Shown piece by piece: positions 4,151 through 63,455 of a DNA stretch of 64,000 bases (position 1 is its first letter; each line of letters begins with the position of its first letter). The position numbers and the translations under genes were made by a program. The notes beneath the pieces are model-generated. The model was not told the origin of the DNA. It saw only the letters and a program-made list of their open reading frames with translations, and made no database searches. The stretch is from an uncultured Prevotella sp. (GTDB taxonomy: Bacteria; Bacteroidota; Bacteroidia; Bacteroidales; Bacteroidaceae): assembly GCA_900315545.1 (NCBI GenBank), contig OMZM01000002.1:62001-126000 (forward strand), in the 5' to 3' direction.

Positions 4151-4599
4151 CTAATCAATTTTCGCCCGTTTACTGTCGCGAGAATGTCCGCGAAACCCGT
4201 TTCCGAAATCTGAGGGGCAAAATATGCCCAAATTTCGCGTTTGTCTGTAATTCTCTGACAGTCAGTTTGTTAGTTGTGAGTATAGCGCTTTTGCGCAAGA
4301 AATATATATGTTAAAATTGTCAAAGAGCATGTTTGACATTGTCAAACAGTGTGTTTGAGGATGCCAAACATAGTGTTTGGGGGTGTCAGGCACAGTGTTC
4401 AGCAGGGCAAAAAAGGCGAAACAGGTACCTCAAAGGTACTCTTTGACAATTTTAACAATCAGTGCCGACTCGAAAATTAACACAAATTTGCACTTTCAGG
4501 GGCTGTTCCGATTCTATTTGGAGAGTTTTTCTGTGTCAAAAATTTTCATCATTTTTCATGCCGAAAGAAAAATCAGACGAGTTTGGCACGGTTTTTGCA
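4151..4599 (+). repeat. Dispersed 450-bp intergenic repeat, copy A
   Basis: One of six related copies in this window (449 bp). Left end CTAATCAATTTTCGCCCG; then a GGGGCAAAAT block, the palindrome CTGACAGTCAG at 4255-4265, inverted arms GTTAAAATTGTCAAAGAG (4310-4327) and its exact complement at 4439-4456, and between them a block of 22-bp imperfect repeats starting GTTTGACATTGTCAAAC. It ends in TTGGCACGGTTTTTGCA (4583-4599), a perfect sigma-54 -24/-12 motif, pointing towards the cotH-like gene. It fills most of the 720-bp gap between 4037 and 4757. Short reading frames in it are not conserved as protein in other copies. I know of no described family with this make-up. Confidence 0.95.
4583..4599 (+). 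promoter_or_regulatory. Sigma-54-type -24/-12 motif at end of repeat copy A
   Basis: TTGGCACG-GTTT-TTGCA: GG and GC elements are exactly 10 bp apart, as RpoN promoters require. The cotH-like gene starts about 160 bp downstream, but that gene also has its own -33/-7 promoter at 4675-4706. Function is inferred from sequence match only. Confidence 0.55.
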
Positions 4600-13550: not shown

Positions 13551-13567
13551 AGCAAAAACCGTGCCAA
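13551..13567 (-). promoter_or_regulatory. Sigma-54-type motif at end of repeat copy B
   Basis: TTGGCACG-GTTT-TTGCT on the minus strand with the required 10-bp GG to GC spacing, about 255 bp before ftsX and pointing at it. Confidence 0.5.
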
Positions 13568-14000
13568 AGTGAACGAAATTTTGTTTTCGGGCGAAAAAGT
13601 ATGAAAATTTTTGACAGGGAAAAACTCTCCAAATAGAATCGGAACAGCCTTCTGAAATGCAAAAATATGTAAAAAATAACGTCGGCGATAATTGTTAAAA
13701 ATGTCAAAGACTACCTTTGAGGCTGCTGTTTTGCCTTTTTTGTCCTGCTGAATATAGTGCCTGATACCCTCAAATACTATGTTTGACCTCCTCAAACACA
13801 CTGTTTGACATTGTCAAACATGCTCTTTGACAATTTTAACATATACAATTCGTGCACGAAACGCTAATATTTAGTATTAACAAATTGATACACAGATGAT
13901 TACAAATACTTGCGAATTTTGGGCGTATTTTGCCCCTCTGATTTCTGAAACGGGTTTCGCGGGCATTCTCGCGACAGTAAACGGGCTAATATTGATTAGT
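13551..14000 (-). repeat. Dispersed 450-bp intergenic repeat, copy B
   Basis: Minus-strand copy, 450 bp. It starts at 14000 with CTAATCAATATTAGCCCG and ends at 13551-13567 with TTGGCACGGTTTTTGCT. It is the most diverged copy: the CTGACAGTCAG palindrome is lost and the right inverted arm carries changes, while the 22-bp repeat block and the terminal motif are kept. It points towards ftsX, with about 255 bp in between that hold only the ftsX -7 box. The stretch 14001-14157 on the other side holds the radical SAM gene's promoter. Confidence 0.93.
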
Positions 14001-22627: not shown

Positions 22628-23488
22628 ATGAAAAAATGTCCAGCATGCTCAGAGTATATTGATGATAAAACATCGATATGTCCTTTTTGTGGTGAAAATG
22701 TAAATGAAGTTAATTCAAAACCACATGTGAATCTTAGAAATTGTCCTATTTGTGATGAATTTATAGATTCTACAATGGAAATTTGTCCTATTTGCCATGA
22801 AAAAACAGGATTCAAAAAAATGGGAAACTCGTCTAATGTAGCACGAAATGTAGATATACAACAGACAAAAGAAAATCCTGATAAACGTATTAAGAATAAG
22901 AAAGAAAAGAGAAAAAGTAAGAATTTTATAAGCAGTAAACATAAGGAAAAAAACGAAAGCACTTTCAGTGGCATTGAGTCAGTTTCACGAGAGAAACAAG
23001 TAAATAATAATAAAAAAGTAATTTTAAAGAGTATTGGCTATATCTCTTTATTTCTTATTATATTAGCAGGTATAGGTTTTGCTTATATGAAATATATAAA
23101 TCAAGATGGTACAGCAGACAAAGTATTAGTTGATAAACAAAAACAAAAGTTACAGGATGAGTTAAGTACACGTATGATACAAGCAGAAAGTATTGCAATT
23201 AAAGGAATACAAAAACTTGGTGATACATATGAAGATTATCTAATTGATGCATATAAAGAATATGATGCCATAGAAAAGGAATTGAAAGAAAATGAAGAGT
23301 TAGGCATCAATCTTCCTGAACTCGAAACACGCATTACAATTGTAAAACAAGCTCTAATAGAAGCAAAAAATGAACTAAAGACACAGAGTGATGGATTGCT
23401 AAAAGAAGATGAGAAAGAGTTAGCTGAAGAATTTATTCATCGCTCTGAAAAAGTAAATAGTTTTATAGAAGATAATAATATAAATTAA
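22628..23488 (+). CDS. Double zinc-ribbon membrane protein with coiled-coil tail
   Basis: 286 residues, no named family recognised. Two zinc ribbons at the N-terminus: Cys4/7/18/21 and Cys39/42/53/56 (CPAC...CPFC and CPIC...CPIC). A very basic linker (about 83-110) leads to one membrane helix at about 133-155; the rest is charged and helical, probably a coiled coil outside the membrane. First coding gene of a long A+T-rich plus-strand run; the next gene begins 6 bp later. Two more ribbon-plus-membrane proteins follow, suggesting they act together. Confidence 0.75.
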   Translation: MKKCPACSEYIDDKTSICPFCGENVNEVNSKPHVNLRNCPICDEFIDSTMEICPICHEKTGFKKMGNSSNVARNVDIQQTKENPDKRIKNKKEKRKSKNFISSKHKEKNESTFSGIESVSREKQVNNNKKVILKSIGYISLFLIILAGIGFAYMKYINQDGTADKVLVDKQKQKLQDELSTRMIQAESIAIKGIQKLGDTYEDYLIDAYKEYDAIEKELKENEELGINLPELETRITIVKQALIEAKNELKTQSDGLLKEDEKELAEEFIHRSEKVNSFIEDNNIN

Positions 23489-23494
23489 AAAGCC

Positions 23495-24148
23495 ATGAGA
23501 AGTATAAAATGTTTGTTCGTTATTTTTTTTACGATAATATCAATATCAACATTTGCACAAACGAAAGCTGATAAATTGTTTTCAGAAGGCATAAATCTAC
23601 AGAAAACAATGACGATGTCTTCGCAAGAGGCTGCGATAAAGAAATTCTCTGCAGCAAAGATAATATATAATGTTTCCGATAAAAAGCAGAATTGTGTTAA
23701 GCAGATAGCAGTATGTAAGAAAAATATTAATAAGCTAAAAGCAGATAAGAAACCTCAAAAACAGAAAAAGAACAAGGAAAATCAAGTGCAAAAAAATAAA
23801 GAAATATCTAATGATATTTATGAGAATGAAGTGATAGTCATAGAGAAACCTGTTGTCGTAGAAAAAAGGGTCGTAACTCTTGGAGCACGTCCAGGTAGTC
23901 TTTTGTTTAAGTGGAATCCTAAAGGAAAAACACAAACAATAGAAGTAAATTGTAACTATAATGATTGGGTAATAGTGGAGCAGCCTCAATGGGTGCATAC
24001 ATCTATCACTTATGACAGACGTGGAATCATTGTTGAGGCTGATGTAAACCAATCAAAAATGCCAAGATATGGAACTATAAAAGTAAGATGTGGAGACTTA
24101 ATTGCAACAATTATAGTTGAACAGAAAAAAGGAAAGAGATTAAAGTAA
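23495..24148 (+). CDS. Exported protein with BACON-like domain
   Basis: 217 residues. Signal peptide 1-21 (ending TFAQ), a short helical region with conserved Cys residues, a Lys-rich linker at about 85-105, then a C-terminal domain of about 90 residues with the BACON pattern: FKWNPKGKTQTIEVNCN, WVIVEQPQWVHTS and GTIKVRCGDLIATIIVEQ. BACON domains are Ig-like folds of Bacteroidota, often in glycan or mucin-related proteins. Six bp after the first ribbon gene, so translationally linked. Confidence 0.72.
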   Translation: MRSIKCLFVIFFTIISISTFAQTKADKLFSEGINLQKTMTMSSQEAAIKKFSAAKIIYNVSDKKQNCVKQIAVCKKNINKLKADKKPQKQKKNKENQVQKNKEISNDIYENEVIVIEKPVVVEKRVVTLGARPGSLLFKWNPKGKTQTIEVNCNYNDWVIVEQPQWVHTSITYDRRGIIVEADVNQSKMPRYGTIKVRCGDLIATIIVEQKKGKRLK

Positions 24149-24172
24149 CAGTATAAATAACAATAAAATAAC

Positions 24173-25084
24173 ATGGAAGAAATGAAAAAATGTCCCCATT
24201 GTGGACAAATGATAAAAAATGTGGCATTAAAATGTCGCTATTGTGGAAGTTGGATTGGTGATGTGCAACAGCCAGAAACAACGATTAAAAAAAAGATTGT
24301 AAATGTTGAGTCTGTAAATCAGCATGCTGTGCAAGAGCAGATGTTGGAAATTCAACATGACACACAACATGTTCATAATCATAATAAAATGCATAACGAA
24401 GATTTCTTTAGTGATAACGCAAATTGTAATGATACAAATAGTAATAATACTTATGAAACTATAGACTTTCAAAAGATTAATATACTACAGGTATTGCAGG
24501 ATGGTTTTTCTTTAGGAATTCGTAACTTCTTAAATATTTTCCTTGCATCATTGTTGTGGATGATAACTATATGGATACCCTATGTAAACGTAGGAACAAC
24601 AATAGCCATATTATCCATGCCAAGTATTTTGGCAAAAGACTCGCAAAGCGATGTTCCTGCGTGTACGTTTATCTTTGATTCACGCTATCGTCAATACATG
24701 GGAGAATTTTTCCTTCTATCAGGTATGATGCTGATAACTCTAATACCAGCTTATGCTTTTGCAATCATACCAGGACTTATAATATCATTAGGTTGGTCAC
24801 AGGCGTTGTACATAATGTTAGATAATGAAATGTCTCCAACAGAAGCGTTGACATGTAGTACAAAAATGACTTATGGATACAAAGCAAAGATTTTTTTAGT
24901 AATGCTTTGTGAAATAATATTATTTGGTTTTATTGGTTATGTCATCTCTCTGATATCAGAAGAATTAGATATAGAGTTTATTACTGCCATTTTATTTATA
25001 GGTTTTGTATCTGTATTTATGGTTGGACATGCAGGATGTATGGCTGTATTATATCGTGATATGAAACACAATTATAATAAATAA
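24173..25084 (+). CDS. Zinc-ribbon polytopic membrane protein
   Basis: 303 residues. One zinc ribbon at the N-terminus (CPHC, Cys7/10, and CRYC, Cys21/24), an Asn- and His-rich linker to about 100, then four or five membrane segments (about 118-150, 180-208, 240-262, 268-292). The membrane part recalls DUF975/YIP1-like proteins but I cannot fix the family. Its stop overlaps the first base of the next ATG. Confidence 0.72.
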   Translation: MEEMKKCPHCGQMIKNVALKCRYCGSWIGDVQQPETTIKKKIVNVESVNQHAVQEQMLEIQHDTQHVHNHNKMHNEDFFSDNANCNDTNSNNTYETIDFQKINILQVLQDGFSLGIRNFLNIFLASLLWMITIWIPYVNVGTTIAILSMPSILAKDSQSDVPACTFIFDSRYRQYMGEFFLLSGMMLITLIPAYAFAIIPGLIISLGWSQALYIMLDNEMSPTEALTCSTKMTYGYKAKIFLVMLCEIILFGFIGYVISLISEELDIEFITAILFIGFVSVFMVGHAGCMAVLYRDMKHNYNK

Positions 25085-27291
25085 TGATAACTATGGGAAA
25101 TAACGAAACAAAACTATGCCCGTATTGTGGAGAAACGATACGGCAGGCTGCCAAGAAATGCCACTATTGTGGCGAATGGCTAACGGAAACCGACATGGTT
25201 AAACCTGAGCCGCAAACTCATGTCGCCAGCCCTGTAGAAACTCCAGAGGAAGACATCTTCGACAACGAAGAACCGTTCTATGTCCGCAATAAGAAAACCC
25301 TGATGGCAGCGGTCTGCGGCTTGCTTCTCTGCGTGGCAGGTTATTTTGGCTGGATGTTGTTAGATTCTTTTCTCACTGGCTCTGGCGAAGTGGAGATAGA
25401 ATACTTTGCCGTATACAATCCGAATACTAAACGCTGGGGACTTGCCAATGCTAAAGGGGAATATCTGGTAAACAACATGTTTGAAAACCGTCCCTCTGCT
25501 GTCGTAGGAAACCGCTTCACGGTTAAGAATGACGACGGAGAGACGATGCTATATACCGCCGAAGAGAATCCGAAGCTTATAGGTAAGTTTTCGTCTGTAG
25601 GTGCTTTCACCGACAATGTCGCCCCCGCAGTAGTAGAGAAAGGTAAGTGGATTACGCTCATCAATCGCAATGGTGACGTGGTGAAAGACCTGAAAGAAAT
25701 CGACGGGAAAAGCGTTGAGGTAGTGAAAAATTTTGCAGAAGGAATGGCAGTAGTCATGATAGATGGTAAATGCGGATATATAAATAAGAAGGGTAAGCTC
25801 GTAATAGAACCACAATTTGATAATGCATACAGCTTTAATGAAGGTAAAGCGATAGTTATTATAAATAAGAGCGACAACTATCAAGAATATGCGGTTATTA
25901 ATAAGAAAGGTGAAATTCTTTTCACTCTTCCGGAAGGGGCAAAAATCTATGAAGACGACTATTGCTTTCATGATGGCTATATTATAGCTAACAATCAGGA
26001 TAGTTTCGTGGGCTATCTCATAAACAGCAAAGGCGAATATAAGGAATTTCAGGATAAAAGCCTAAGCGGGAGTGCATACAATGGAGACTTTGTTATAAAC
26101 AGCAATGGAAAATTCAGCATGCAGAGAGGCGACGCTACGACTATCAACAGTTACGACAATATAGACTATAACGGTAAGATAGCCATGGCTTCTAACAATG
26201 ATGGAATCAACTATCTTCTTGATGATAAATGTATGGAAGCGCGACTTCCATTCTCCGAAAAATGTATGGCTTTGCCACATAATGTGAAATACAACGATGA
26301 GATTATCATGAGGTCTGTAGGCGACGACAGCTATAATTACAATCTCGTTTATCTTGATGGCCGCGCAATAAGTGCGGATATTCAGGTGGACAGTCAGTCT
26401 TTTGATTATGAAGACGCGGTTGTCACAGAATACCTCGATGCTGAGAAATTGGCAGATATGTTTGTTTTCACAGATAATGGCATAAATGGTATGTCGTTTG
26501 ATGACAACGTGGAAAGTGTCATAAATAATTTCGGCTACGACAACAACCCTAATTATTTCTCTGAAGGTAGAGCCTATATAGAAAGATTCTATCATGCAAA
26601 CGGTGTGGATTGTTTATCTCGTGTATATTTCGATTCTGATTTTATTTCGACTGACGGTAGCGACAAGAAAAGCTTCGTAAGGAGCAATGTTAAAAATATT
26701 GAATTTGCATTTGGACTCCGTGAACACAACGATGATGTAATAAAACAAGCCTATGACCTGTTACTTAAACGCTTAGAAAAAAAATTTTCAAGGAAATATG
26801 GATTTGAACACAATGAAGATGAAGTCGATTTTATATCGGCCAATTCTAAATACTTGATACGCTTAGTAAGGAACAGTGAAGATGTTACTTTGTATTACGA
26901 ACGCATATTTACTATAGCGTTAGACCTCAATGGAGATGATGACCTCAATGGAGATGATGAAGGAGGATGCGGAGGCTACTATGGACTGATAGCAAGTATT
27001 CCTGATGGAATTACGGAATATGAAGGGACCATGACTGGTTTTCCAATAGAATTTACCATACATAAGGACGACAACAAAGGTGTTTTATATGCTATCTATA
27101 AAAATGTGAACTATGGAACAAAAATGCGTCTCGAAGGCGAGTCATTACCTGCAGATGATGGCAATATAAATTTCATTACTGTAGGACGTAAGGAAGAGTG
27201 GCACTTTAATCTTACCGGCGACTACAACCATATAACCGGTTACGCAGAAAGCGGAGATAAACACTATAAAGTAATATTGAATAAGAAATAA
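25084..27291 (+). CDS. Zinc-ribbon, single-pass protein with WG repeats
   Basis: 735 residues. Ribbon Cys12/15 and Cys26/29 (CPYC, CHYC), a membrane helix at about 76-98, and a large outer part. WG-type repeats cover about 115-260: YNPNTKRWGLANAKGEYL, DGKCGYINKKGKLVIEPQFD and AVINKKGEILFTLP. The C-terminal 400 residues are not recognised. A DLNGDD hexapeptide is duplicated near residue 615 through an exact 18-bp tandem repeat (26923-26958). The first 250 codons use more G and C than the rest, so the gene looks mosaic. Its ATG overlaps the previous stop by one base; M4 (25093) is an alternative. Function unknown; WG repeats usually mediate protein contacts. Confidence 0.78.
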   Translation: MITMGNNETKLCPYCGETIRQAAKKCHYCGEWLTETDMVKPEPQTHVASPVETPEEDIFDNEEPFYVRNKKTLMAAVCGLLLCVAGYFGWMLLDSFLTGSGEVEIEYFAVYNPNTKRWGLANAKGEYLVNNMFENRPSAVVGNRFTVKNDDGETMLYTAEENPKLIGKFSSVGAFTDNVAPAVVEKGKWITLINRNGDVVKDLKEIDGKSVEVVKNFAEGMAVVMIDGKCGYINKKGKLVIEPQFDNAYSFNEGKAIVIINKSDNYQEYAVINKKGEILFTLPEGAKIYEDDYCFHDGYIIANNQDSFVGYLINSKGEYKEFQDKSLSGSAYNGDFVINSNGKFSMQRGDATTINSYDNIDYNGKIAMASNNDGINYLLDDKCMEARLPFSEKCMALPHNVKYNDEIIMRSVGDDSYNYNLVYLDGRAISADIQVDSQSFDYEDAVVTEYLDAEKLADMFVFTDNGINGMSFDDNVESVINNFGYDNNPNYFSEGRAYIERFYHANGVDCLSRVYFDSDFISTDGSDKKSFVRSNVKNIEFAFGLREHNDDVIKQAYDLLLKRLEKKFSRKYGFEHNEDEVDFISANSKYLIRLVRNSEDVTLYYERIFTIALDLNGDDDLNGDDEGGCGGYYGLIASIPDGITEYEGTMTGFPIEFTIHKDDNKGVLYAIYKNVNYGTKMRLEGESLPADDGNINFITVGRKEEWHFNLTGDYNHITGYAESGDKHYKVILNKK
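26923..26958 (+). repeat. Exact 18-bp tandem duplication inside the WG-repeat gene
   Basis: GACCTCAATGGAGATGAT twice in a row, in frame, giving DLNGDDDLNGDD. The product recalls a DxNxDD calcium-binding loop; it may be a recent slippage event. Confidence 0.9.
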
Positions 27292-27319
27292 CAAATAACA
27301 ACTTCTAACAATTACAATT

Positions 27320-28240
27320 ATGAAAAAAGTAAATTTAAAAAAGATTTTTGGATTGCTTGCAATCCTTGTTTGTGGTTTAACTGTTTCATTGTCTTTAACA
27401 TCGTGCGACAATGATGTATTAAACGAAATTTTTGATGATGGTGTAGAGTCATGGGATGATTATGTCAGTATCAAGATAACACGCTGTGAGCGCGTAGGTC
27501 ATAATCTCATTATTGACTATGAGATGAAAAACAAGAAAGACAGAGAGGTAAGAGTAACTGCGTCTAGACCTGAATACAGCAGTAGCAGTTTGCTGCCAAT
27601 CGTTGACAACTTGGGCAATGGATACGGAGCTTTCTTCTCGTTTGCATCAGAAAAGTATTATTGGGGTTATTCACACGTAAACATCTCTGCTAAAAACACA
27701 GTAACAGGGCATATAAAGATAGAGAATTTTGATGATAGCAACAAAGCCCAAAAAGTAAATTGTAAAATGTATATTGTTATAGATGGCGTAGATATTGATT
27801 ATGAACATCGACTGTTTTCACAAGATGGGATAAAGATAACCGACAAACGAATTCTCAAAGATGGAGTTCAGACAAACGACAACAATCTTGTATATACTAT
27901 CCAATCATGTAGATTTAACGACAATGGAAACGTTATTCTCAACTTCTCTGTTAAGAATAATACCGATTATGACTTGAAGAACTATGAGTTATCTGGAAGT
28001 AAAGTATATGACGATATGGGCAATTCGTATGATGCTTATTTATCTAATTCTGAAAATAGCGAATATAGAAGTTACCAAGATTGGAGTATTAGCGATGGAG
28101 CAAGTATTAACGTTTCGTGCGCGATAAAAAATGTCAATAAAAATGCTAAGAACATAACAGTTTGGCTAAACAACGGGATAGGGAACTACATACCGACCGA
28201 TGATGTCGTTAGATTTATAACAATTCCAATTCAGAAATAA
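27320..28240 (+). CDS. Lipoprotein with two Ig-like repeats
   Basis: 306 residues. Lipoprotein signal: basic start, hydrophobic stretch and lipobox ending LTSC, with Asp at +2. Two similar halves follow (about 45-175 and 190-300), each beginning with a strand such as YVSIKITRCERV or LVYTIQSCRFND and containing a DNLGNGYGA/DDMGNSYDA turn: an internal duplication of an Ig-like domain, similar in outline to DUF4352-like proteins. Starts 28 bp after the WG gene and ends at a strong terminator, so it closes the first sub-operon. Function unknown. Confidence 0.7.
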   Translation: MKKVNLKKIFGLLAILVCGLTVSLSLTSCDNDVLNEIFDDGVESWDDYVSIKITRCERVGHNLIIDYEMKNKKDREVRVTASRPEYSSSSLLPIVDNLGNGYGAFFSFASEKYYWGYSHVNISAKNTVTGHIKIENFDDSNKAQKVNCKMYIVIDGVDIDYEHRLFSQDGIKITDKRILKDGVQTNDNNLVYTIQSCRFNDNGNVILNFSVKNNTDYDLKNYELSGSKVYDDMGNSYDAYLSNSENSEYRSYQDWSISDGASINVSCAIKNVNKNAKNITVWLNNGIGNYIPTDDVVRFITIPIQK

Positions 28241-28244
28241 GACC

Positions 28245-28286
28245 TTGTCAGTGGGCAGTCCTGCTGCCCACTGACAAATAATTTTT
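28245..28286 (+). terminator. Strong terminator inside the A+T-rich gene run
   Basis: TTGTCAGTGGGCA (28245-28257) pairs perfectly with TGCCCACTGACAA (28265-28277), then a T-run. It divides the twelve genes into two sets (22628-28240 and 28324-33753). Confidence 0.88.
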
Positions 28287-28323
28287 AGAGTAACATATAT
28301 AATAATGTAATAATAAGGCAACT

Positions 28324-28776
28324 ATGAAAAGGATACGATATATGTTTTTAGCAGTATGTCTGATGTTTACGATGACAAGCTGCGTGTTCAACAACTCTCC
28401 TTCTAAAGTTGTTGAAAAAGTAATGAAAAGTATAAAGAAAGGTAAAGTTCCGAATGTGGACAAGTATTATTTCTATAGGGGCATAAATGGAGAGGAAAAT
28501 GAAAGATTGAAAGAGTCAATTATCTCCGATTTGGAAAAGACCATAGAAAAATATAATGACATAGATAAGGATAACAAGATAAAGGGTATAAAGATTATTA
28601 AAGAAAAGATTGAAGAATATCCGGACGGCAAAATGGCTGATGTAAAAGTCGAGTTGACAACTGCGAATGGAGAAACACGCAATGTGAAGTTTGGACTTAT
28701 AAAAGTTTCTGGCGATTCTTGGCGTATCATTTCTGATAACTTAGATGGTATAATCTATTTTTTAAGAACGCGATAA
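28324..28776 (+). CDS. Small lipoprotein, DUF4878-like
   Basis: 150 residues with a lipobox ending MTSC. The mature part (SPSKVVEKVMKSIKKGK ... VKFGLIKVSGDSWRI) matches the pattern of DUF4878/NTF2-like lipoproteins: helices, then strands ending in a 'W.I' segment. Binding role not known. First gene after the internal terminator; no clear promoter was found for it. Confidence 0.65.
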   Translation: MKRIRYMFLAVCLMFTMTSCVFNNSPSKVVEKVMKSIKKGKVPNVDKYYFYRGINGEENERLKESIISDLEKTIEKYNDIDKDNKIKGIKIIKEKIEEYPDGKMADVKVELTTANGETRNVKFGLIKVSGDSWRIISDNLDGIIYFLRTR

Positions 28777-28824
28777 AATATTGTAATATAAGTAATAGAA
28801 TAATTTAAACAAAACGTTTTTGAA

Positions 28825-29676
28825 ATGAGAAAGATATTTTTTATTGTCATTGGTGCCTTTATCTTTGTTCAACAACCTGTCCATGCACAAAGATGGTTTA
28901 AGATCCTTAAAAAAGGAGTTGAAGTTGCAACAAGGGTTATAGTTGAAAATTCAAAGGAAGATAATACTTATATAAAAGAAAGTTCAGAAGATAGTAGTCC
29001 CATTCAGCAAGATCAAATTCCTGTTGTGAAACCTATTCTTTTCAACACTATAGTTGCTGAGGATAAGGGCGATGCTTCTCTGGATGTGTCTGTTGCCAAT
29101 CCCATCTCTGGAGATGCCAATGAGGTGTCTGCTGTCAGAAAGGCTATTTTGAATATGATTTATGAGTCTGATGTGTATGAGATGTTTTCAAAAAACTATC
29201 GAAGCGAAAATATTAATGACATTATCAACAACATCGTAAGAAACTACAGAAAGGCTCCTGAAGAAGAAATGGGCATGAGTGTTTATGACCTTCAGATAGA
29301 AGAAGACTATCAGAACAGTAATGTTATTACGTTTAAGCTTACAGATGCCATCTGGATGAATGGTGGTCCCTCGCAGTATATACTTACGGTTAATAAAAGC
29401 GATGGCCGCATACTGAAGGAAAAAGATATCGTCAATATTTCAAGAAGCAAACTTGTTGCGTTGTTGAAGCAATATAACGATGAAGAAAAGTTTTATCGGG
29501 AAATAGATGAAGATTTCAATATCGACGACAAATATGGTTTTAATGTAGCCATAAGAAAAGATGGCTTATGTTTCAGACTTGATTGTTACAAGTTTTATGA
29601 AGATTTCGATGTCTATCTGCCATATAATGTCGTAGAGCCCTACCTGACACCGCTTGGGAGGTCTTTAATAAAATAA
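28825..29676 (+). CDS. Exported DUF3298-like protein
   Basis: 283 residues with signal peptide 1-21 (ending VHAQ). The mature region has the DUF3298 pattern: an N-terminal strand-helix part and later GGPSQYILTVNKSDGRIL and YGFNVAIRKDGLCFRLDCY, then LPYNVVEPYL. Such domains occur in RsiV-like lysozyme sensors and in exported Bacteroidota proteins; here it stands alone, without a membrane or sigma-binding part, so sensor function is not implied. Confidence 0.68.
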   Translation: MRKIFFIVIGAFIFVQQPVHAQRWFKILKKGVEVATRVIVENSKEDNTYIKESSEDSSPIQQDQIPVVKPILFNTIVAEDKGDASLDVSVANPISGDANEVSAVRKAILNMIYESDVYEMFSKNYRSENINDIINNIVRNYRKAPEEEMGMSVYDLQIEEDYQNSNVITFKLTDAIWMNGGPSQYILTVNKSDGRILKEKDIVNISRSKLVALLKQYNDEEKFYREIDEDFNIDDKYGFNVAIRKDGLCFRLDCYKFYEDFDVYLPYNVVEPYLTPLGRSLIK

Positions 29677-29691
29677 AAAAAGAAATTGTCT

Positions 29692-30372
29692 ATGAAAAAG
29701 GTTGCATTTATATCTTTGTTGTCTGTATTTCTCATAATGAGTTGTCGTGATAGAAAATTTATTCCAGATGGCTCACTGGTAAATGATGAAAAGCAGACAA
29801 AAGAAAATGAAGTTACAACAGAAGTTGAGGATTCTTTTTTAGTTGTAGTCGACACAATGGAAGTTGACCCTGTTGTGTCTAATGATGTCATAAGCAGAGG
29901 CGATCTTGGCATATTCGAATTGCGCGGACCCGTCAAGAAATGTGTATTTAAATATGAAGGATATTCTGTTACATGTTCTTTTAGTGAAGAAGGTATTTGG
30001 CTGTCTGAGAATGGACAAAGTTTAAGCAGTATGTATCCGGGCGAAATTAAAAGGGATAAGAAAGGAAGGCTCATAAGTGCTTGTAATGAAGGTGATATAT
30101 TTATTGGTTACAAATATGATGAAAGAGGATTGGTAGTGGAAGCGAACGGTGATGGCGGCAACAGTATAAATTATTATGATGCTGATGGCTATTTGAAGAA
30201 GTCTAAGGAAACTGTTAGTCCTGATATGGGTTCAGAAGATGCTCCTGAAAAATATACAATGACATACAGCATATTGGAAAAAGATTCATACGGCAATTGG
30301 ACAAAACGTAAAGAGGTAAGCGATAAAGGAACAGTTTCGTACACGACACGTGTTATAACATATTATAATTAA
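29692..30372 (+). CDS. Lipoprotein with YD/RHS-like repeats (paralogue 1)
   Basis: 226 residues from the ATG at 29692 (an in-frame TTG lies two codons earlier). Lipobox ends IMSC. After an acidic linker the protein has strand repeats of the YD/RHS kind: KRDKKGRLISACN, YKYDERGLVVEAN, NYYDADGYLKKS, and ends DSYGNWTKRKE ... VITYY. The gene at 31864 is a diverged paralogue with the same order (GDLGIFELRGPVK versus GELGIFNLYGPVK; same ending). Function unknown; related repeats form shells or bind glycans. Confidence 0.68.
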   Translation: MKKVAFISLLSVFLIMSCRDRKFIPDGSLVNDEKQTKENEVTTEVEDSFLVVVDTMEVDPVVSNDVISRGDLGIFELRGPVKKCVFKYEGYSVTCSFSEEGIWLSENGQSLSSMYPGEIKRDKKGRLISACNEGDIFIGYKYDERGLVVEANGDGGNSINYYDADGYLKKSKETVSPDMGSEDAPEKYTMTYSILEKDSYGNWTKRKEVSDKGTVSYTTRVITYYN

Positions 30373-30396
30373 TAACTTAAAAAACAAAACTGAATT

Positions 30397-31092
30397 ATGA
30401 AAAAACTGAATTTATTAGCGTTGGCACTTAGTGCAATGCTTGTTGTTTCGAGTTGTGGACAGCTTAACAATACAACAAAAGGTGGGCTGTTTGGTGGTAG
30501 TGGCGGTGCCGCTCTTGGCGGCATAATAGGAAACATTATAGGAAAGGATTCAAAGGCAACCGCTATTGGTGCTTCTATTGGTGCTGTTGTAGGTACTGGT
30601 GCAGGCGTACTTATTGGGAAACACATGGATAAAGTGGCAGACCAGGCACGTCAGATAGACAATGCACGAGTAGAAACTATCACTGATGCTAATGGTTTTA
30701 CAGCAGTTAAGATGTCTTTCGATTCTGGAATATTGTTCCCTGTAAATAAATCAGAACTGAATTACAGCTCAAAGCAGTCGCTTTCTCGTTTTGCAGAAAT
30801 GTTAAGAAGCGATCCAAATCTTCTTGTTGATATTCAAGGTCATACAGACAGTAGTGGAAACGACCAGATAAACTTACCATTATCAAGAAAACGTGCAGAA
30901 GCTGTGAAGAACTATCTTGTTGCACTTGGTGTACCATATTATCAGTTTAACAATGTTGTTGGCTATGGCTCGGCTTATCCAGTTGCAGACAACTCTACTG
31001 CGTACGGTAAGCAGCAGAACCGCAGGGTAGAAGTATATCTTTATGCCAGCCAAAATATGATAAACGCTGCAAATAGTGGAACTCTAAGGTAA
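30397..31092 (+). CDS. OmpA-family lipoprotein with glycine zipper
   Basis: 231 residues. Lipobox ends VSSC. Residues about 28-75 are a glycine-zipper segment (GGLFGGSGGAALGGIIG ... GAVVGTGAGVLIG), then an OmpA C-like domain from about 110 with GHTDSSGNDQINLPLSRKRA and NRRVEVYL, the peptidoglycan-binding signature. It likely ties the outer membrane, or an assembly in it, to the cell wall. This is the most clearly identified member of the cluster and supports an envelope role for the others. Confidence 0.9.
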   Translation: MKKLNLLALALSAMLVVSSCGQLNNTTKGGLFGGSGGAALGGIIGNIIGKDSKATAIGASIGAVVGTGAGVLIGKHMDKVADQARQIDNARVETITDANGFTAVKMSFDSGILFPVNKSELNYSSKQSLSRFAEMLRSDPNLLVDIQGHTDSSGNDQINLPLSRKRAEAVKNYLVALGVPYYQFNNVVGYGSAYPVADNSTAYGKQQNRRVEVYLYASQNMINAANSGTLR

Positions 31093-31123
31093 ACAATTAA
31101 GAAACAAATAAAAACCAAATGTT

Positions 31124-31852
31124 ATGAAAACAAAAATGTTTAAGTATGGATTATTCTTCTTGATACTTTTCTTTGGTGTGGCACTGACATCTTGTGATGA
31201 CAAAGACAAGGATGAAGAAAAAGAGGAAGTTGTATTCGATGAAAGAATAGAAAAAGTATTGCCTGAGGATATACGTGTGTCAGTTGAGAGGTATATGCCT
31301 TTATTCTTGGGTGTGAATCCTCCAAATGTAGAAGGAACTTATTATATTGATCCTTACGTTTCTGTTTATTGTGAGGATGAAGCTTTTGAACCAGGACGTG
31401 TGATATCTTCGTATTATATTAATTTCTCAAATCAGAATATGAGTAATAATACAATAGATATGTATAAAACGTCAAGTGATTTCACGGATAAATCGGATGG
31501 AAAAGGAGTTTTTATAAGTGGATCTGATGATAAATTTACAGCTTATTTCAGTACGACCGGTATAAGTTCTTTTTCTGACTATGATGTGTACTACAAAACA
31601 TCTGTTGTTATTTCAGGCAAAAAAACAAAAAATGGAATAAAGGATTTATATTATGCCTTTGTTATGCTTGAAAAAAGTGATGACCCGGAAAATAATGTAA
31701 TGGATGAGGGATATTTTAGAATATTTAAGGACGATGACGGACTGAGTGAAGATAGTAGCATAAACCAACTTCCACGCAATGCACGTCTTGTAAAAGAGGG
31801 AAATATAAACACTCTCTATATGTCTGCAAATGCAAAGAAATATAAACAGTAG
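31124..31852 (+). CDS. Lipoprotein of unknown family
   Basis: 242 residues with a lipobox ending LTSC followed by an acidic run. Mature part is rich in Tyr, Ser and Asp, with no motif that I recognise. It sits between the OmpA-family gene (31 bp) and the second YD-repeat gene (11 bp), so is co-transcribed with them. Confidence 0.6.
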   Translation: MKTKMFKYGLFFLILFFGVALTSCDDKDKDEEKEEVVFDERIEKVLPEDIRVSVERYMPLFLGVNPPNVEGTYYIDPYVSVYCEDEAFEPGRVISSYYINFSNQNMSNNTIDMYKTSSDFTDKSDGKGVFISGSDDKFTAYFSTTGISSFSDYDVYYKTSVVISGKKTKNGIKDLYYAFVMLEKSDDPENNVMDEGYFRIFKDDDGLSEDSSINQLPRNARLVKEGNINTLYMSANAKKYKQ

Positions 31853-31863
31853 ATACCGTAATT

Positions 31864-32604
31864 ATGAAAAACAAAAATAGTTTTCTAACAGTTTTGTTGG
31901 TGGGAGCATTAATGCTCTCGCCAACAAAAACTATGGCACAAAGCAATGTAGTAGGTGAAGCCATAGGTTTGGGAGTGGAACTTCTTGGAGGATTATTCAG
32001 TAAGAAAAAGAATAAAAAAGCCAAAAAACAGCAAGATGTAATTACTCCGATTCCTAATAATATAGATCAAAATGTTTCGCAGGAGAAAATAATTTCAGGC
32101 GAACTTGGTATTTTCAATTTATACGGTCCTGTTAAGTCTGTAGTTATTACGAATAAGACAACTATGGATGGCGAGTCGTGGGAAGATGTAGAAAAATACA
32201 CTTTCGACAGAAATGGCTATATGCAAACATTCAAAGATTATAATATGACCTATTTCCTTGCTAATAGTGAGCGAGACGCAAAGAATCGTCTCATAAAAAT
32301 CTCATACGACAGTGAGATTGAGTATAGATATGATGACTTGGGAAGGTTGGTATATGAATCTGAAACCGATGGGCAGTTCTTTGACACAGAACTGGAATAT
32401 GAATACGATGAAATCGGTTATGTCAAAACTATGAGAAAAGTTGGATCACACTTTACTAATCCTGATGAAGAAGATGGCTATACAGATATAGTCATCAATT
32501 GTACAGTATTGCAGTGTGATGAGTATGGCAATTGGATAAAGCGTAAGGATATTTACAATAATGGCTGGTCTGTTATAATAACGCGTACGATAAGTTATTA
32601 TTAA
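31864..32604 (+). CDS. Exported YD/RHS-like repeat protein (paralogue 2)
   Basis: 246 residues with signal peptide 1-24 (ending MAQ) rather than a lipobox, then a Lys-rich patch. Shares order and motifs with the product of 29692: GELGIFNLYGPVK, ERDAKNRLIKIS, YRYDDLGRLVYES, YEYDEIGYVKT and ECDEYGNWIKRKD-like ending. One paralogue is thus lipid-anchored and the other probably soluble or secreted. Function unknown. Confidence 0.67.
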   Translation: MKNKNSFLTVLLVGALMLSPTKTMAQSNVVGEAIGLGVELLGGLFSKKKNKKAKKQQDVITPIPNNIDQNVSQEKIISGELGIFNLYGPVKSVVITNKTTMDGESWEDVEKYTFDRNGYMQTFKDYNMTYFLANSERDAKNRLIKISYDSEIEYRYDDLGRLVYESETDGQFFDTELEYEYDEIGYVKTMRKVGSHFTNPDEEDGYTDIVINCTVLQCDEYGNWIKRKDIYNNGWSVIITRTISYY

Positions 32605-32622
32605 TAAATAAAAGTCATGTGA

Positions 32623-33753
32623 ATGAAAAAAATAGTACATGCATTTTTGCTTGTAATGTTAGTATCTTGTACTGTGAATGAAGCACAGAAGAATATACTT
32701 GCTAAAACTTTGTTTTCTGAAGCTGTGGCAGCGACAAATGACGACACATTATTTAGTCATGGTAGGCAGGTAAATGTCAATGAAGAAATTATATCTTTTG
32801 CTATGTGTGGTGATATAATGATGGGTACGACATATCCCGAAGTCAGGCTGCCGGCAAATGATGGGAAATATTTGTTTGACGATACAAAAGAAATTACGAA
32901 ACGTGTTGACGTTGCAGTAGGAAATCTGGAAGGTGTGTTGTGTAATGATGGAACGTCAACAAAGGAGGATGGTCCATACTCTTATTCGTTTATGATGCCA
33001 ACACGTTTTGCTTCTCTTCTGAGCGATGCAGGCTATGATTTTCTCAGCATGGCAAACAATCATGCAAATGATTTTGGAATAGAAGGTATTGCCAGCACAG
33101 AACAATGTCTTGATAATGAAGGTATTAAATATGCAGGTATTGTAGGACGAACAAAGGGTGCGGTGATAGAAAGGAGAGACAGAAAGATTGGATTCTGTGC
33201 TTTCGGACATAATGGGTACACTTACAGGCATCAGGATAAAGAACTTGTAAAGTCTTTGCTTGACGATTTAAATACACAGTGTGACATAATAGTGGTTTCC
33301 TTTCATGGTGGTGCGGAAGGAAAAACACAAAGTCATTTGCCATACGGAACAGAGATGTTCTTAAATGAGGATAGGGGAAATCTCCGCGAATTTGCACATT
33401 TTTGTATTGACAATGGTGCTGATGTCGTCTACGGACACGGTCCTCATGTACTAAGATGCATAGAAGTATATAATAATCGTTTCATTGCATATAGTCTTGG
33501 AAATTTCTGTACTCCACATGGTATAAATATTACAGGAATATCGGGTTATGCTCCCGTGATAGAGATAAAAATCGACAAAAATGATGGTTCGTTCAAGTCC
33601 GGGATAATCCATTCGTTTATACAACAATCTGGTATTGGACCGAGAAAGGATAAGACAAACTGTGCAGCAAAGGAAATAAAACGTCTTACGATAGAAGATA
33701 TTGTTGACAGTAATATCGTAATTGACAATAGAGGATATATAAGTATGCAATAA
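32623..33753 (+). CDS. CapA-family lipoprotein (PGA_cap metallophosphatase fold)
   Basis: 376 residues, lipobox ending LVSC. The domain from about residue 50 carries CapA landmarks: FAMCGDIMMGTTYPE, AVGNLEGVLC, SMANNHANDFG, ISFHGG-like VVSFHGGAEG and VYGHGPHVLR, metal-binding residues of a calcineurin-like fold. CapA was named from poly-gamma-glutamate capsule genes, but the family is broad and the other cap genes are absent here. Last gene of the run; a terminator follows at 33799. Confidence 0.87.
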   Translation: MKKIVHAFLLVMLVSCTVNEAQKNILAKTLFSEAVAATNDDTLFSHGRQVNVNEEIISFAMCGDIMMGTTYPEVRLPANDGKYLFDDTKEITKRVDVAVGNLEGVLCNDGTSTKEDGPYSYSFMMPTRFASLLSDAGYDFLSMANNHANDFGIEGIASTEQCLDNEGIKYAGIVGRTKGAVIERRDRKIGFCAFGHNGYTYRHQDKELVKSLLDDLNTQCDIIVVSFHGGAEGKTQSHLPYGTEMFLNEDRGNLREFAHFCIDNGADVVYGHGPHVLRCIEVYNNRFIAYSLGNFCTPHGINITGISGYAPVIEIKIDKNDGSFKSGIIHSFIQQSGIGPRKDKTNCAAKEIKRLTIEDIVDSNIVIDNRGYISMQ

Positions 33754-33798
33754 GTTTTTATCTGTAATCTTCCGAGCCTAAGCTATTGTGCTGACCAT

Positions 33799-33838
33799 GA
33801 ATGCTCCCTTGTGTTGAAAAAGGGGGCATTCTTTTGTT
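33799..33838 (+). terminator. Terminator closing the lipoprotein gene run
   Basis: GAATGCTCCCTT (33799-33810) pairs with AAGGGGGCATTC (33820-33831), followed by TTTTGTTTT. Confidence 0.85.
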
Positions 33839-33959
33839 TTATTGCGGGGCGATTATTTTGTCTGGGGATGCAATATTTCGGGGGAATGTGCGTTATTTAT
33901 GTTGTTGGGATAGGATGATAATTTCAATGGGAAATATTTTAAAAATCAGATTTAAGGAT

Positions 33960-34643
33960 ATGAAAAGACAATTATTAACGTTGATGGCTGCCGTTGTGGT
34001 GGTTTGCTGTCAGGCGCAGGAGGCTGCCGGACGGTTTTCCGTAGTGCCAAAAGTGGGTGTGAACATTGCAAACATCAGCAACTTCAAATGGACTGGCGAG
34101 GAGACTCTGAAGCCTGCTTCGTCGAAGATGAAGGCTGGCATGACGGTTGGTGCTGAGGCTGAATACCAGGCTACGCAGACGCTTGCCGTAGGTGCGGGAC
34201 TGTTGTATTCCATGCAGGGCGTGGGCTACGACGACTTTGTAGTTCCTCTCGGGCGAAATATTTTTCAGGGTGTCAAGGATTTCAGGCTTAATTTGCAGTA
34301 TCTCAATGTTCCTGTTTTCGTGCGTCAGTATCTATTTAAGGGTTTCTCGATTATGGCTGGCGTGCAGCCCGGAATCCTGCTTGATGCGCGTGTTAAGAGC
34401 AACGAAAGTGTGTGGACGGTGTCGGACGACAACAAGGCGGTCTACGAGTCGCAGCATGATGTCGACGACAAGTGGCATGGAGTACGCGATTTCTACGTGT
34501 CGATACCTGTCGGCGTTGCCTACGAGTATGAGCGTGTGCTGATAGAGGCGCGATATAATTTTGGCGTTACTAAAGTGTTCGAGTACAATCTTTTCAACAG
34601 CCGTAACGGTGTGATGACGTTTACGGTGGGCTACAGGATATAG
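33960..34643 (+). CDS. Outer membrane beta-barrel protein, PorT-like
   Basis: 227 residues from the ATG at 33960; the frame is open upstream but the signal peptide (MKRQLLTLMAAVVVVCCQAQ) fixes the start. Alternating strands such as VGAEAEYQATQTLAVGAGL, NLQYLNVPVFVRQYL and MTFTVGYRI fit an eight-stranded barrel of the OMP_b-brl_2/PorT kind. Paired with a shorter relative 25 bp downstream. Role unknown; not necessarily the type IX PorT protein. Confidence 0.8.
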   Translation: MKRQLLTLMAAVVVVCCQAQEAAGRFSVVPKVGVNIANISNFKWTGEETLKPASSKMKAGMTVGAEAEYQATQTLAVGAGLLYSMQGVGYDDFVVPLGRNIFQGVKDFRLNLQYLNVPVFVRQYLFKGFSIMAGVQPGILLDARVKSNESVWTVSDDNKAVYESQHDVDDKWHGVRDFYVSIPVGVAYEYERVLIEARYNFGVTKVFEYNLFNSRNGVMTFTVGYRI

Positions 34644-35386: not shown

Positions 35387-35836
35387 TTTAATCATTTTTC
35401 GCCCGTTTACTGTCGCGTGAGTGCCCTCGAAAGCCGTTTCGGAAATTACAGGGGCAAAATACGCTCAAATTTCGCATATATTTGTAATTCTCTGACAGTC
35501 AGTTTGTTAGTTGTGAATATACGCTTTGGGTGCACGAAATACAAGTGTTAAAATTGTCAAAGAGTATGTTTGAGATTGTCAAACACACTGTTTGAGGAGG
35601 TCAGACATAGTGTTTCGGGGTGTCGGGCGTAGTGTTTTGCAGGGCAAAATAGTCGAAATGGTAGGCTCAAAGATACTCTTTGACATTTTTAACAGTTATC
35701 GCCGACATCAAAATTAACAGATTTTTGCAGTTTTAAGGACAGTTCCGCTTCTAATTGAACGATTTTTCTCTGTCAAAATTTTTCATACATTTTCGGTTTG
35801 AAAGAAAATTCCGTTGAGTTTGGCACGGTTTTTGCA
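35387..35836 (+). repeat. Dispersed 450-bp intergenic repeat, copy C
   Basis: 450 bp, plus strand, with the same parts as copy A: CGCCCGTTTACTGTCGCG near the left end, CTGACAGTCAG, left arm GTTAAAATTGTCAAAGAG, the 22-bp repeat block and the end TTGGCACGGTTTTTGCA (35820-35836). It lies between two TTAAC-rich palindromes and points at the 3' end of clpB, about 145 bp away, so here it cannot be a promoter for the adjacent gene. Confidence 0.95.
35820..35836 (+). promoter_or_regulatory. Sigma-54-type motif at end of repeat copy C
   Basis: TTGGCACG-GTTT-TTGCA with correct spacing. Any transcript would run through the clpB terminator region and be antisense to clpB. Confidence 0.45.
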
Positions 35837-41977: not shown

Positions 41978-42426
41978 CTAATCAATTTTAGCCCGTTTAC
42001 TGTCGCGTGAGTGCCCTCGAAAGCCGTTTCGTAAATTGCAGGGGCAAAATACGCCCAAATTTCGCATGTATTTGTAATTCTCTGACAGTCAGTTTGTTAG
42101 TCGTGAATATGCGCTTTTGACTCACGAAATCTATATGTTAAAATTGTCAAAGAGTGTGTTTGACATTGTCAAACACACTCTTTGAGGTGGTCAGACATAG
42201 TGTTTGGGGGTGTCGGGCACTATGCTTAACAACGCAAAATAGGCTAAATAGTGGGCTCAAAGATACTCTTTGACAATTTTAACAGTTATCACGGACTTTA
42301 AAATTAACACAATTTTGCAGTTTCGAGGGCTGTCCCGATTTTATTTGAACGATTTTTCCCTGTCAAAATTTTTCATCATTTTTCGCCTTGAAAGAATATT
42401 CCGTTGAGTTTGGCACAGTTTTTGCA
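41978..42426 (+). repeat. Dispersed 450-bp intergenic repeat, copy D
   Basis: 449 bp. CTAATCAATTTTAGCCCG start, CTGACAGTCAG, inverted arms at 42137-42154 and 42266-42283 that are perfect complements, 22-bp repeats between, and TTGGCACAGTTTTTGCA (42410-42426) at the end. It points at the 3' end of the M6 protease gene, with the protease terminator in between. Confidence 0.95.
42410..42426 (+). promoter_or_regulatory. Sigma-54-type motif at end of repeat copy D
   Basis: TTGGCACA-GTTT-TTGCA; core bases and spacing intact. No plus-strand gene follows for over 2 kb. Confidence 0.45.
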
Positions 42427-51676: not shown

Positions 51677-51693
51677 AGCAAAAAGTGTGCCAA
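51677..51693 (-). promoter_or_regulatory. Sigma-54-type motif at end of repeat copy E
   Basis: TTGGCACA-CTTT-TTGCT, minus strand. A transcript from it would run into the terminator of the HD gene from the back. Confidence 0.45.
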
Positions 51694-52125
51694 ACTCGCA
51701 TGATTTCTCTTCAGGCAAGAAAAATGATGAAAAATTTTGACAGAGTAAAATCGTTCAAATAGAATCGGAACAGCGCCTGAAAGTGTAAATTTGTGTTAAT
51801 TTACAAGTCGGCGACAACTGTTAAAAATGTCAAAGAGTACCTTTGAGCCTACTATTTAGTCTATTTTGCCATGCAAAACACTGCGCCCGACACCCCCAAA
51901 CACTATGTCCGACCTCCTCAAACAGTGTGTTTGACAATCTCAAACATACTCTTTGACAATTTTAACACTTGTATTTCGTGCGTCCAAAGCGTATGTTCCC
52001 GACTAACAAACTGACTGTCAGAGAATTGCAAATACATGCGAAATTTGAGCGTATTTTGCCCCTGCAATTTCTGAAACGGCTTTCGAGGGCACTCACACGA
52101 CAGTAAACGGGCGAAAATTGATTAT
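51677..52125 (-). repeat. Dispersed 450-bp intergenic repeat, copy E
   Basis: Minus-strand copy, 449 bp, with CTGACAGTCAG, left arm GTTAAAATTGTCAAAGAG, 22-bp repeats and TTGGCACACTTTTTGCT (51677-51693) at its end. The end lies seven bases from the T-run of the HD-gene terminator and points at that gene's 3' end. The opposite end lies about 70 bp before the porQ promoter. Confidence 0.95.
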
Positions 52126-63006: not shown

Positions 63007-63455
63007 CTAATCAATTTTGGCTCGTTTACTGTCGCGTGAGTGCCCTCGAAACCCGTTTCGGAAATTACGGGGGCAAAATATGCCCAAATTTCGCATATTC
63101 TCGTAATTGTCTGACAATCAATTTGTTATGGTAAAATGTTGCATTTATTCGCACGAAATGTATATGTTAAAATTGTCAAAGAGTATGTTTGACATTCTCA
63201 AACACACTGTTTGAGGCGGTCAGACATAGTGTTTGGGGGTGTCGGGCGTAGTGTTTTGCAGGGCAAAATAGACCAGATAGGCGCGTCAAACATGCTCTTT
63301 GACAATTTTAACAGTTATCGCCGACTCTAAAATTAACACAATTTTGCACTTCCAATGCCCGTTCCGATTCTATTTGAACGTTTTTTCCCTGTCAAAAATT
63401 TTCATACTTTTTCGGTACGAAAGAAAATCCTGGCGAGTTTGGCACAGTTTTTGCT
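63007..63455 (+). repeat. Dispersed 450-bp intergenic repeat, copy F
   Basis: 449 bp. CTAATCAATTTTGGCTCG start, 22-bp repeats between arms GTTAAAATTGTCAAAGAG and CTCTTTGACAATTTTAAC (perfect complements), end TTGGCACAGTTTTTGCT (63439-63455). It points at iorA, about 195 bp away, which also has an ordinary promoter at 63535-63566. Confidence 0.95.
63439..63455 (+). promoter_or_regulatory. Sigma-54-type motif at end of repeat copy F
   Basis: TTGGCACA-GTTT-TTGCT with correct spacing, about 195 bp before iorA and facing it. Confidence 0.55.

Follow-up and report, generated by a model that had tools for sequence, protein, structure and literature searches.

Several described families of short repeats offer points of comparison for the elements reported here. 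Correia elements have terminal inverted repeats (TIRs), for which the present family has no counterpart, TIMEs are non-autonomous and come from a transposon group with transposition immunity, and REPs are tens of bp long and tied to RAYT transposases. The present elements differ from REPs in being about 446 bp long and in having a promoter edge and an exclusion zone. In the portions of the BrickBuilt paper drawn on here, the BrickBuilt/MITEPgRS elements of Porphyromonas gingivalis resemble the present family in being found in Bacteroidales, always intergenic, nearly limited to one species and without a transposase inside, and we also count their 23-nt internal repeats and bidirectional promoter activity as a likeness (PMC4596501). 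The two differ in that BrickBuilt numbers 19 copies, as opposed to about 140 here, varies in length with the number of its repeats and possesses small TIRs like those of the IS5-family ISPg elements, whereas the present family has none; in the same portions, the word sigma does not occur in the main text on BrickBuilt, and the term 'spacing' is absent as well (PMC4596501). The Correia (NEMIS) elements of Neisseria, as described in the excerpts used, are likewise short and intergenic, have promoters that point outwards and in one case also contain a site for IHF, but their promoters are sigma-70-like while the conserved edge here is of the sigma-54 type (PMC10969869). TIMEs (Tn3-derived miniature elements; PMC4133298) have TIRs, as their name says, which the present elements lack, and REP/BIME and REPIN sequences share with the present elements the character of high-copy palindromic repeats whose populations persist in a genome (PMC2817692, PMC8049555).

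Compared with MITEs, the present family is short, high-copy and non-coding, and neither TIRs nor target-site duplications are found. The sequence-only reading, an earlier inspection of the same DNA, knew of no described family of this kind. This stands insofar as no family that has a sigma-54 edge or keeps its copies apart turned up in the open-licence PMC papers searched, but promoter-bearing MITE-like intergenic repeats are known. Those named in the portions of a prokaryotic-MITE review drawn on here carry sigma-70-like promoters, and the sigma-54 edge sets the present family apart from them by description (PMC10969869). The sigma-54 edge, a palindrome array with its inverted repeat and a rule of spacing are all new relative to the sequence-only reading, which was right but had understated what is there.

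Copy number and length

The window, i.e., the whole stretch of 64,000 nucleotides that was analysed, belongs to a genome of 2.29 Mb in 56 contigs (92% complete) and holds six copies:

4151..4599, + strand: copy 1, used in the alignment and for landmarks
13551..14000, - strand: copy 2, used in the alignment; between ftsX and a radical-SAM gene
35387..35836, + strand: copy 3, used in the alignment; between convergent genes, with the sigma-54 edge towards the 3' end of a clpB-like gene
41978..42426, + strand: copy 4, used in the alignment and as the query for genome searches
51677..52125, - strand: copy 5, used in the alignment; sigma-54 edge towards the 3' end of an HD-domain gene
63007..63455, + strand: copy 6, used in the alignment; sigma-54 edge towards the start of the next gene

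A MAFFT alignment of these copies with 50-bp flanks upheld all six coordinates and strands given by the sequence-only reading, as well as its claim that the copies share one design from end to end: similarity is near-continuous from TAATCA to TTTTTGC, spanning the whole element rather than short patches, and the flanks are unrelated. The great many copies that it had expected in the genome are indeed present, with 143 copies or pieces counted. When the genome was searched at the nucleotide level with copy 4, 162 candidates were returned, and all 40 that were scored are full length with 78-100% identity. The arm GTTAAAATTGTCAAAGAG occurs 143 + 139 times with at most 3 mismatches versus 4 + 6 times for the reversed control, and the right-end motif TTTGGCAC[AG]NTTTTTG has 129 exact occurrences versus 0 in the control. 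The count of 143 results from merging the 145 hits of a profile Hidden Markov Model (HMM) scan of 943 kb of the genome, made up of the 129 motif sites with 2.4 kb on each side, additional arm sites and some of the largest gaps. The arm sites that guided the scan were the first 100 places and end within contig C24; beyond it, the count may lack copies that lie outside the stretches scanned and do not have the right-end motif in its exact form. Up to 8 copies are possibly counted twice, because 16 pieces touch contig ends, where a single copy may have been split in two. Of the 143, 118 cover at least 400 model positions. These amount to some 135-143 short elements, non-coding and intergenic, and the family would have expanded within a single Prevotellaceae lineage. 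Among the 114 nearly full copies (the 129 exact-motif sites minus 5 outside elements, 9 cut by contig ends and 1 with a 36-bp insertion), the median identity between pairs is 76%, and the general identity to the consensus is about 83%.

A length of 449 or 450 bp in every copy, which the sequence-only reading had put forward, holds for the six window copies and fails for the whole family, in which a 424-bp subfamily, copies with indels and a second class, class B, are found. From TAATCA to TTTTTG, the 109 copies measured are 446 bp (56 copies), 445 bp (19), 448 bp (15), 447 bp (9), 424 bp (7), 425 bp (2) or 435 bp (1) long, with 99 of them falling between 445 and 448 bp. The companion claim that indels are disfavoured is supported, as 79 of the 114 aligned copies have no gap and 84 no insertion in the 446 columns, against 9,222 base differences from the consensus. 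The commonest larger indel is a coupled -1/-21 haplotype found in 8 copies, and single copies show 10-, 11-, 12-, 15-, 26- and 36-bp changes. For the helical phase suggested earlier, the -1/-21 haplotype speaks slightly, but the other single-copy indels fit no one rule; length may be kept for the phase of a protein array or for a copying requirement.

An overall fold, the other explanation offered for the constant length, is not borne out: outside the near-invariant arms, the strongest couplings between columns, counted over 100 copies, are local haplotype blocks and not Watson-Crick pairs. The same couplings weigh against a family of structured non-coding RNA genes, for which no compensatory pairs are found on either strand. 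One copy does fold better than its shuffles (z -3.45 as RNA and -4.05 as DNA), and the helices of the + strand consensus have more G-U than A-C (1,026 versus 202), but the - strand behaves likewise (463 versus 128). No known RNA family was matched either, since an Rfam scan of the window at gathering thresholds detected only a tRNA, and with no conserved open frame and a sigma-54 motif at the 3' edge of the + strand, an RNA gene family is highly improbable.

Anatomy of the element and its sigma-54 edge

In the consensus, the left end consists of an A-run, TAATCA, a left block (..GTTTACTGTCGCG..) and the arm TGTTAAAATTGTCAAAGAG, in that order. Units of about 22 bp (GTTTGACATTGTCAAACACACT / GTTTGAGGAGGTCAGACATAGT / GTTTGGGGGTGTCGGACACTAT) lie between the arms and are followed by the arm CTCTTTGACAATTTTAACA, 3' of which are found a right block with TTCTATTT and CTGTCAAAA and then the edge TTTGGCACNNTTTTTG. 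An internal 19-bp inverted repeat hence flanks an array of TTTGACA/TGTCAAA-like palindromes with a period of about 22 bp, both absent from the sequence-only reading. The landmarks are:

42136..42154, + strand: arm 1 of copy 4, TGTTAAAATTGTCAAAGAG
4309-4327, 13823-13841, 35546-35564, 51949-51967 and 63165-63183: arm 1 of the other copies
42158..42174, + strand: first palindrome of the ~22-bp-period array of copy 4, GTTTGACATTGTCAAAC
42266..42284, + strand: arm 2 of copy 4, CTCTTTGACAATTTTAACA
4439-4457, 13693-13711, 35676-35694, 51819-51837 and 63295-63313: arm 2 of the other copies, some with one or two changes
42338..42366, - strand: inward sigma-70-like match of copy 4, TTGACA-N17-TAAAAT, a match to the consensus only

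At the centre of the array, ACACT and AGTGT alternate between stems of CAAAC and GTTTG, as if a hairpin loop had been inverted from one copy to another. In 106 of 114 copies, TTGACA-N17-TAGA is found on the minus strand of the right block, a possible inward promoter judging from its sequence; the promoter scan of the copy 4 region gave 3 promoter-like sites versus 1.6 (sd 1.5) in shuffles and is thus not above them. The sequence-only reading noticed no transposase, TIRs or clear target duplications, and the family agrees with it on each point. The best inverted match between the consensus ends is 7 bp, which 106 of 300 shuffles reach; the best duplication is a 4-mer across the flanks in 10 of 109 copies, at an A-rich place; and a transposase is found neither inside the element, where no frame is kept, nor among 10 neighbouring window genes (Pfam). 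A coding role was ruled out, as no open frame is conserved inside the element. An attachment-site-like direct repeat at the left flank was also tested and ruled out. Degenerate AACGGG/GTTAAC-like hexamer arrays adjoin some copies (e.g., downstream of L018, L024 and L028; left of C20:5526 and C38:39961). Class B is a minority of 10 copies, in which the profile match stops at model position 393-406; these have the core of class A, the majority, with other ends (7 of the 10 have the end AAAATCACAAA in common) and no sigma-54 motif.

The consensus for sigma-54 is TGGCAC-N5-TTGC, with GG...GC at -24/-12 and fixed spacing. The right edge of class-A copies is, by its sequence, such a -24/-12 promoter motif (TTTGGCAC-NN-TTTTTG). 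TGGCAC-N5-TTGC is found exactly six times in the window, each time at the right edge of a copy:

4582..4597, + strand: sigma-54 motif of copy 1, TTTGGCACGGTTTTTG
13553..13568, - strand: sigma-54 motif of copy 2
35819..35834, + strand: sigma-54 motif of copy 3
42409..42424, + strand: sigma-54 motif of copy 4
51679..51694, - strand: sigma-54 motif of copy 5
63438..63453, + strand: sigma-54 motif of copy 6

The 14 fixed bases of the motif are intact in 46 of 49 class-A copies from contigs up to C24, chosen because their arm is exact and their right end complete, with class B and cut copies left out. The 118 full copies were for the most part chosen by the motif itself; it is exact in 114 of them and deviates by one base in each of the other 4. 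Among 104 copies, its last base is C (72%) or T (28%). A class-A element might accordingly be described as a compact sigma-54 cassette with presumed protein-binding sites in its palindromic array, and the -24/-12 motif would start transcription just outside the element. An RpoN match (a 515-codon frame) is present in the genome, together with one strong match to a sigma-54 activator (218 bits), with a Fis-type HTH and the loop GAFTSA, and three further weak AAA+ matches, two of which lie in Clp genes.

Five of the 129 exact motif sites lie outside elements. In the same genome, solo motifs precede grpE by 34 nt, a Clp ATPase gene by 51 nt and a gene for a WG-repeat protein by 63 nt, while C6:6115 and C7:1056 (L045 and L046) are solo right edges that have only the motif and its close surroundings in common with the element copies. 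In relatives, the motif is found 35-56 nt before htpG in 4 of the 10 motif-bearing loci viewed, one of the four being confirmed by Pfam. The excerpts used of one study describe a sigma-54-dependent GrpE in Bacteroides thetaiotaomicron and, for Bacteroidia, an enrichment of HSP90 and ATP-dependent proteases, in line with a sigma-54 chaperone regulon in Bacteroidia (PMC12316311).

These observations bear on whether the family could consist of ordinary neutral MITEs, the right ends of which are sigma-54-like by chance. The copies are intergenic, non-coding and dispersed and have subfamilies, all of which such MITEs would show; however, the 14 fixed bases are kept far beyond the general identity of about 83%, and the same motif occurs before chaperone genes and inside unrelated repeats of two other genomes of the genus (G421 and G340). 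This explanation is already disfavoured, and we hold it to be very unlikely.

With gene calls from a purpose-made caller based on codon usage, all 115 copies tested (the alignment set plus the copy with the 36-bp insertion) are intergenic, two of them overlapping a low-scoring ORF. Nine have no called neighbour on one side, and the neighbours of the 106 with both are divergent in 37 cases, codirectional with the copy in 25, opposed to it in 21 and convergent in 23. Where a gene downstream of the edge was called (112 copies), it is oriented like the copy in 66 cases, at a median distance of 178 bp. If the elements were a portable network of promoters or enhancers that puts neighbouring genes under the chaperone sigma factor, this mild excess (binomial p 0.07) would be expected, and it leaves some room for use by genes. 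On the other hand, tandem contexts show no excess (25 versus 21, binomial p 0.66) and 23 copies are found between convergent genes. Because their orientation to genes is nearly random, the copies are not simply gene promoters, and a network of this kind is unlikely.

Spacing between copies

Only 2 of 97 same-contig intervals are shorter than 6 kb (3,551 and 5,809 bp, the former involving a partial copy), whereas uniform placement, which was not restricted to intergenic DNA, gave 39.5 such intervals on average and 24 at the lowest in 5,000 runs. With unmerged counts, uniform placement gives 41 on average and 26 at the lowest; merging of hits less than 300 bp apart concerned two places, C9, where a copy is split, and C17:146 kb, where a class-B fragment lies next to a copy. 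Contigs up to C24 alone have 2 of 52 intervals below 6 kb, with 21.8 expected and 10 the lowest. The coefficient of variation of the intervals is 0.53 versus 0.98 for uniform placement. A pure exponential model is rejected (KS p 2e-11), an exponential with a 7-kb shift fits 91 of the 97 intervals (KS p 0.92; the shift was chosen after looking) and a gamma model of shape 4.7 is not rejected (KS p 0.10); because the gamma fit is also acceptable, the fit alone cannot tell regular spacing from exclusion. The exclusion zone of about 6-7 kb is found in all four orientation pairs, and the shortest of the 20 intervals between class A and class B is 7,164 bp. That spacing holds for all orientation pairs and between the classes argues against removal of copies by direct-repeat recombination. 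As a pattern, copies avoid DNA near another copy, as under target immunity.

Copy-free stretches are partly low-GC or atypical (C17:30-66 kb, C18:33-48 kb and window 22.6-34.6 kb) and partly native by codon use over 29-33 kb (e.g., C22:34-67 kb and C35:25-54 kb), so that islands as the cause of long gaps explain some of them and were rejected for the others. Within the window, 22628-34643 holds a run of codirectional genes whose codon use is atypical; it lies in an interval of 21.4 kb between two copies and is probably acquired DNA. The long tail of the intervals and the empty native stretches favour exclusion over a strict lattice; selection for spacing is still compatible with them.

The elements may be mobile or may serve the chromosome. 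One reading is that they are chromosome-organising sites maintained by the host about every 10 kb, where a protein on the palindrome array would act as an anchor, as a domain barrier or by spreading as ParB/Noc-like proteins do. The sigma-54 closed complex would belong to the structure, and both spacing and length would be under host selection. This reading would account for a spacing that is independent of orientation and class and acceptably fitted by a gamma model, for the constant length and few decayed copies and for an edge motif that is kept whatever the neighbouring genes, and the array palindrome has what we take to be a resemblance to parS-like inverted repeats. However, exclusion plus randomness fits the intervals too, native-looking stretches of 29-33 kb have no copy at all, and among 399 genomes of the genus, with at most 2 candidates scored in each, only two partial matches are found elsewhere, so that the elements are not needed for a normal chromosome. 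We regard a chromosome-organising role as the chief rival, though an unlikely one.

The reading that we put first, while judging it an even call, is that the elements are MITE-like, mobile and copied in trans under a target-immunity-like exclusion. Copies would be spread by a transposition or copying machinery whose choice of target avoids DNA near an existing copy, the palindrome array or the arms being the site that it recognises. The sigma-54 motif and the length would be kept because the element itself, rather than its neighbouring genes, needs them, either for stress-triggered transcription or for a spaced protein-DNA complex during mobilisation. Among the observations that count against such mobile elements, neither TIRs nor target duplications are present and no transposase was found, the near-absence of indels and fragments is odd when compared with the neutral decay that would follow insertion, and class B does without the sigma-54 edge. 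No element ends apart from copies, as an autonomous partner would have, were detected in the 943 kb scanned of the 2.29-Mb draft, so that such a partner may have been missed; a search of the genome for the Mu/TnsB C-terminal domain gave no match, as did its control, and so carries no weight. With about 140 elements, most of them with a sigma-54 edge, and an exclusion zone of 6-7 kb, the genome offers a natural system from which target immunity or chromosome-domain spacing can be read in sequence.

Probable gain of copy 2, and other repeats with the motif in the genus

Loci with and without a copy were compared at one site, the gap between ftsX and the radical-SAM gene. It spans 861 bp in the present genome and 90-280 bp in 12 relatives, namely those with both genes on the locus fetched. 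Since the gap is too short for a copy in these 12, copy 2 was most simply gained in its own lineage. The tree of copies is transposon-like, with terminal branches that sum to 14.1, internal branches that sum to 3.8 and a closest pair that is 94.7% alike. An adjacent copy is the nearest relative in 16 of 114 cases versus a mean of 1.07 and a maximum of 8 in 5,000 label shuffles, and adjacent pairs have a mean identity of 0.755, which lies some 2 standard deviations above that of shuffled labels and within their range. A phage or plasmid origin was considered and rejected, as no match was obtained when one copy was compared by blastn with 50,697 records of phages and 72,556 of plasmids; one pattern searched in viral contigs had 0 occurrences.

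G421 contains the exact edge motif 13 times, as compared with 0 to 4 times for the other genomes of the genus that were sampled. Ten of the 13 sites were read (L263-L272); they are part of an unrelated repeat in which about 160 bases downstream of the motif are conserved. Of these, 8 of the 10 are located at contig ends, and both copies uncut by a contig end have 23-bp TGACTGCCCAGTCATAGGTGGAG-like palindromic units upstream of the motif. Its match to the present profile is limited to the motif stretch. In G340, three copies (L273-L275) of another repeat have GTTAGGTNTTA-like units, which are followed directly by TTTGGCACCCTTTTTG. Dispersed repeats of the genus thus show, more than once, palindromic or tandem units ahead of a sigma-54 motif, which suggests that the promoter of the chaperone sigma factor has been repeatedly captured by such repeats. 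A rather unlikely, more speculative extension is a species-specific, stress-sigma-linked punctuation of the chromosome about every 10 kb, in which a phased protein-binding array and a sigma-54 complex, derived from proliferated elements, would now organise the chromosome and would have evolved more than once in the genus out of unrelated sequences, i.e., in the family of the present genome (G000) and in that of G421.

Outside its own genome, the present family is nearly absent from the genomes sampled. When 399 genomes of the genus were searched, with at most 2 candidates scored in each, matches were found in three, including the own genome, the others being a 126-bp match to the right half in G005 and a 53-bp match in G307. 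One exact pattern searched against 84,980 species genomes, a set from which the own record is possibly absent, found one record, uncultured Prevotellaceae bacterium RUG624, at the half copy of G005. This half copy (L031/L167/L278) extends from arm 2 to the right edge, has one extra T in the edge and lies, by eye, near an apparent IS gene.
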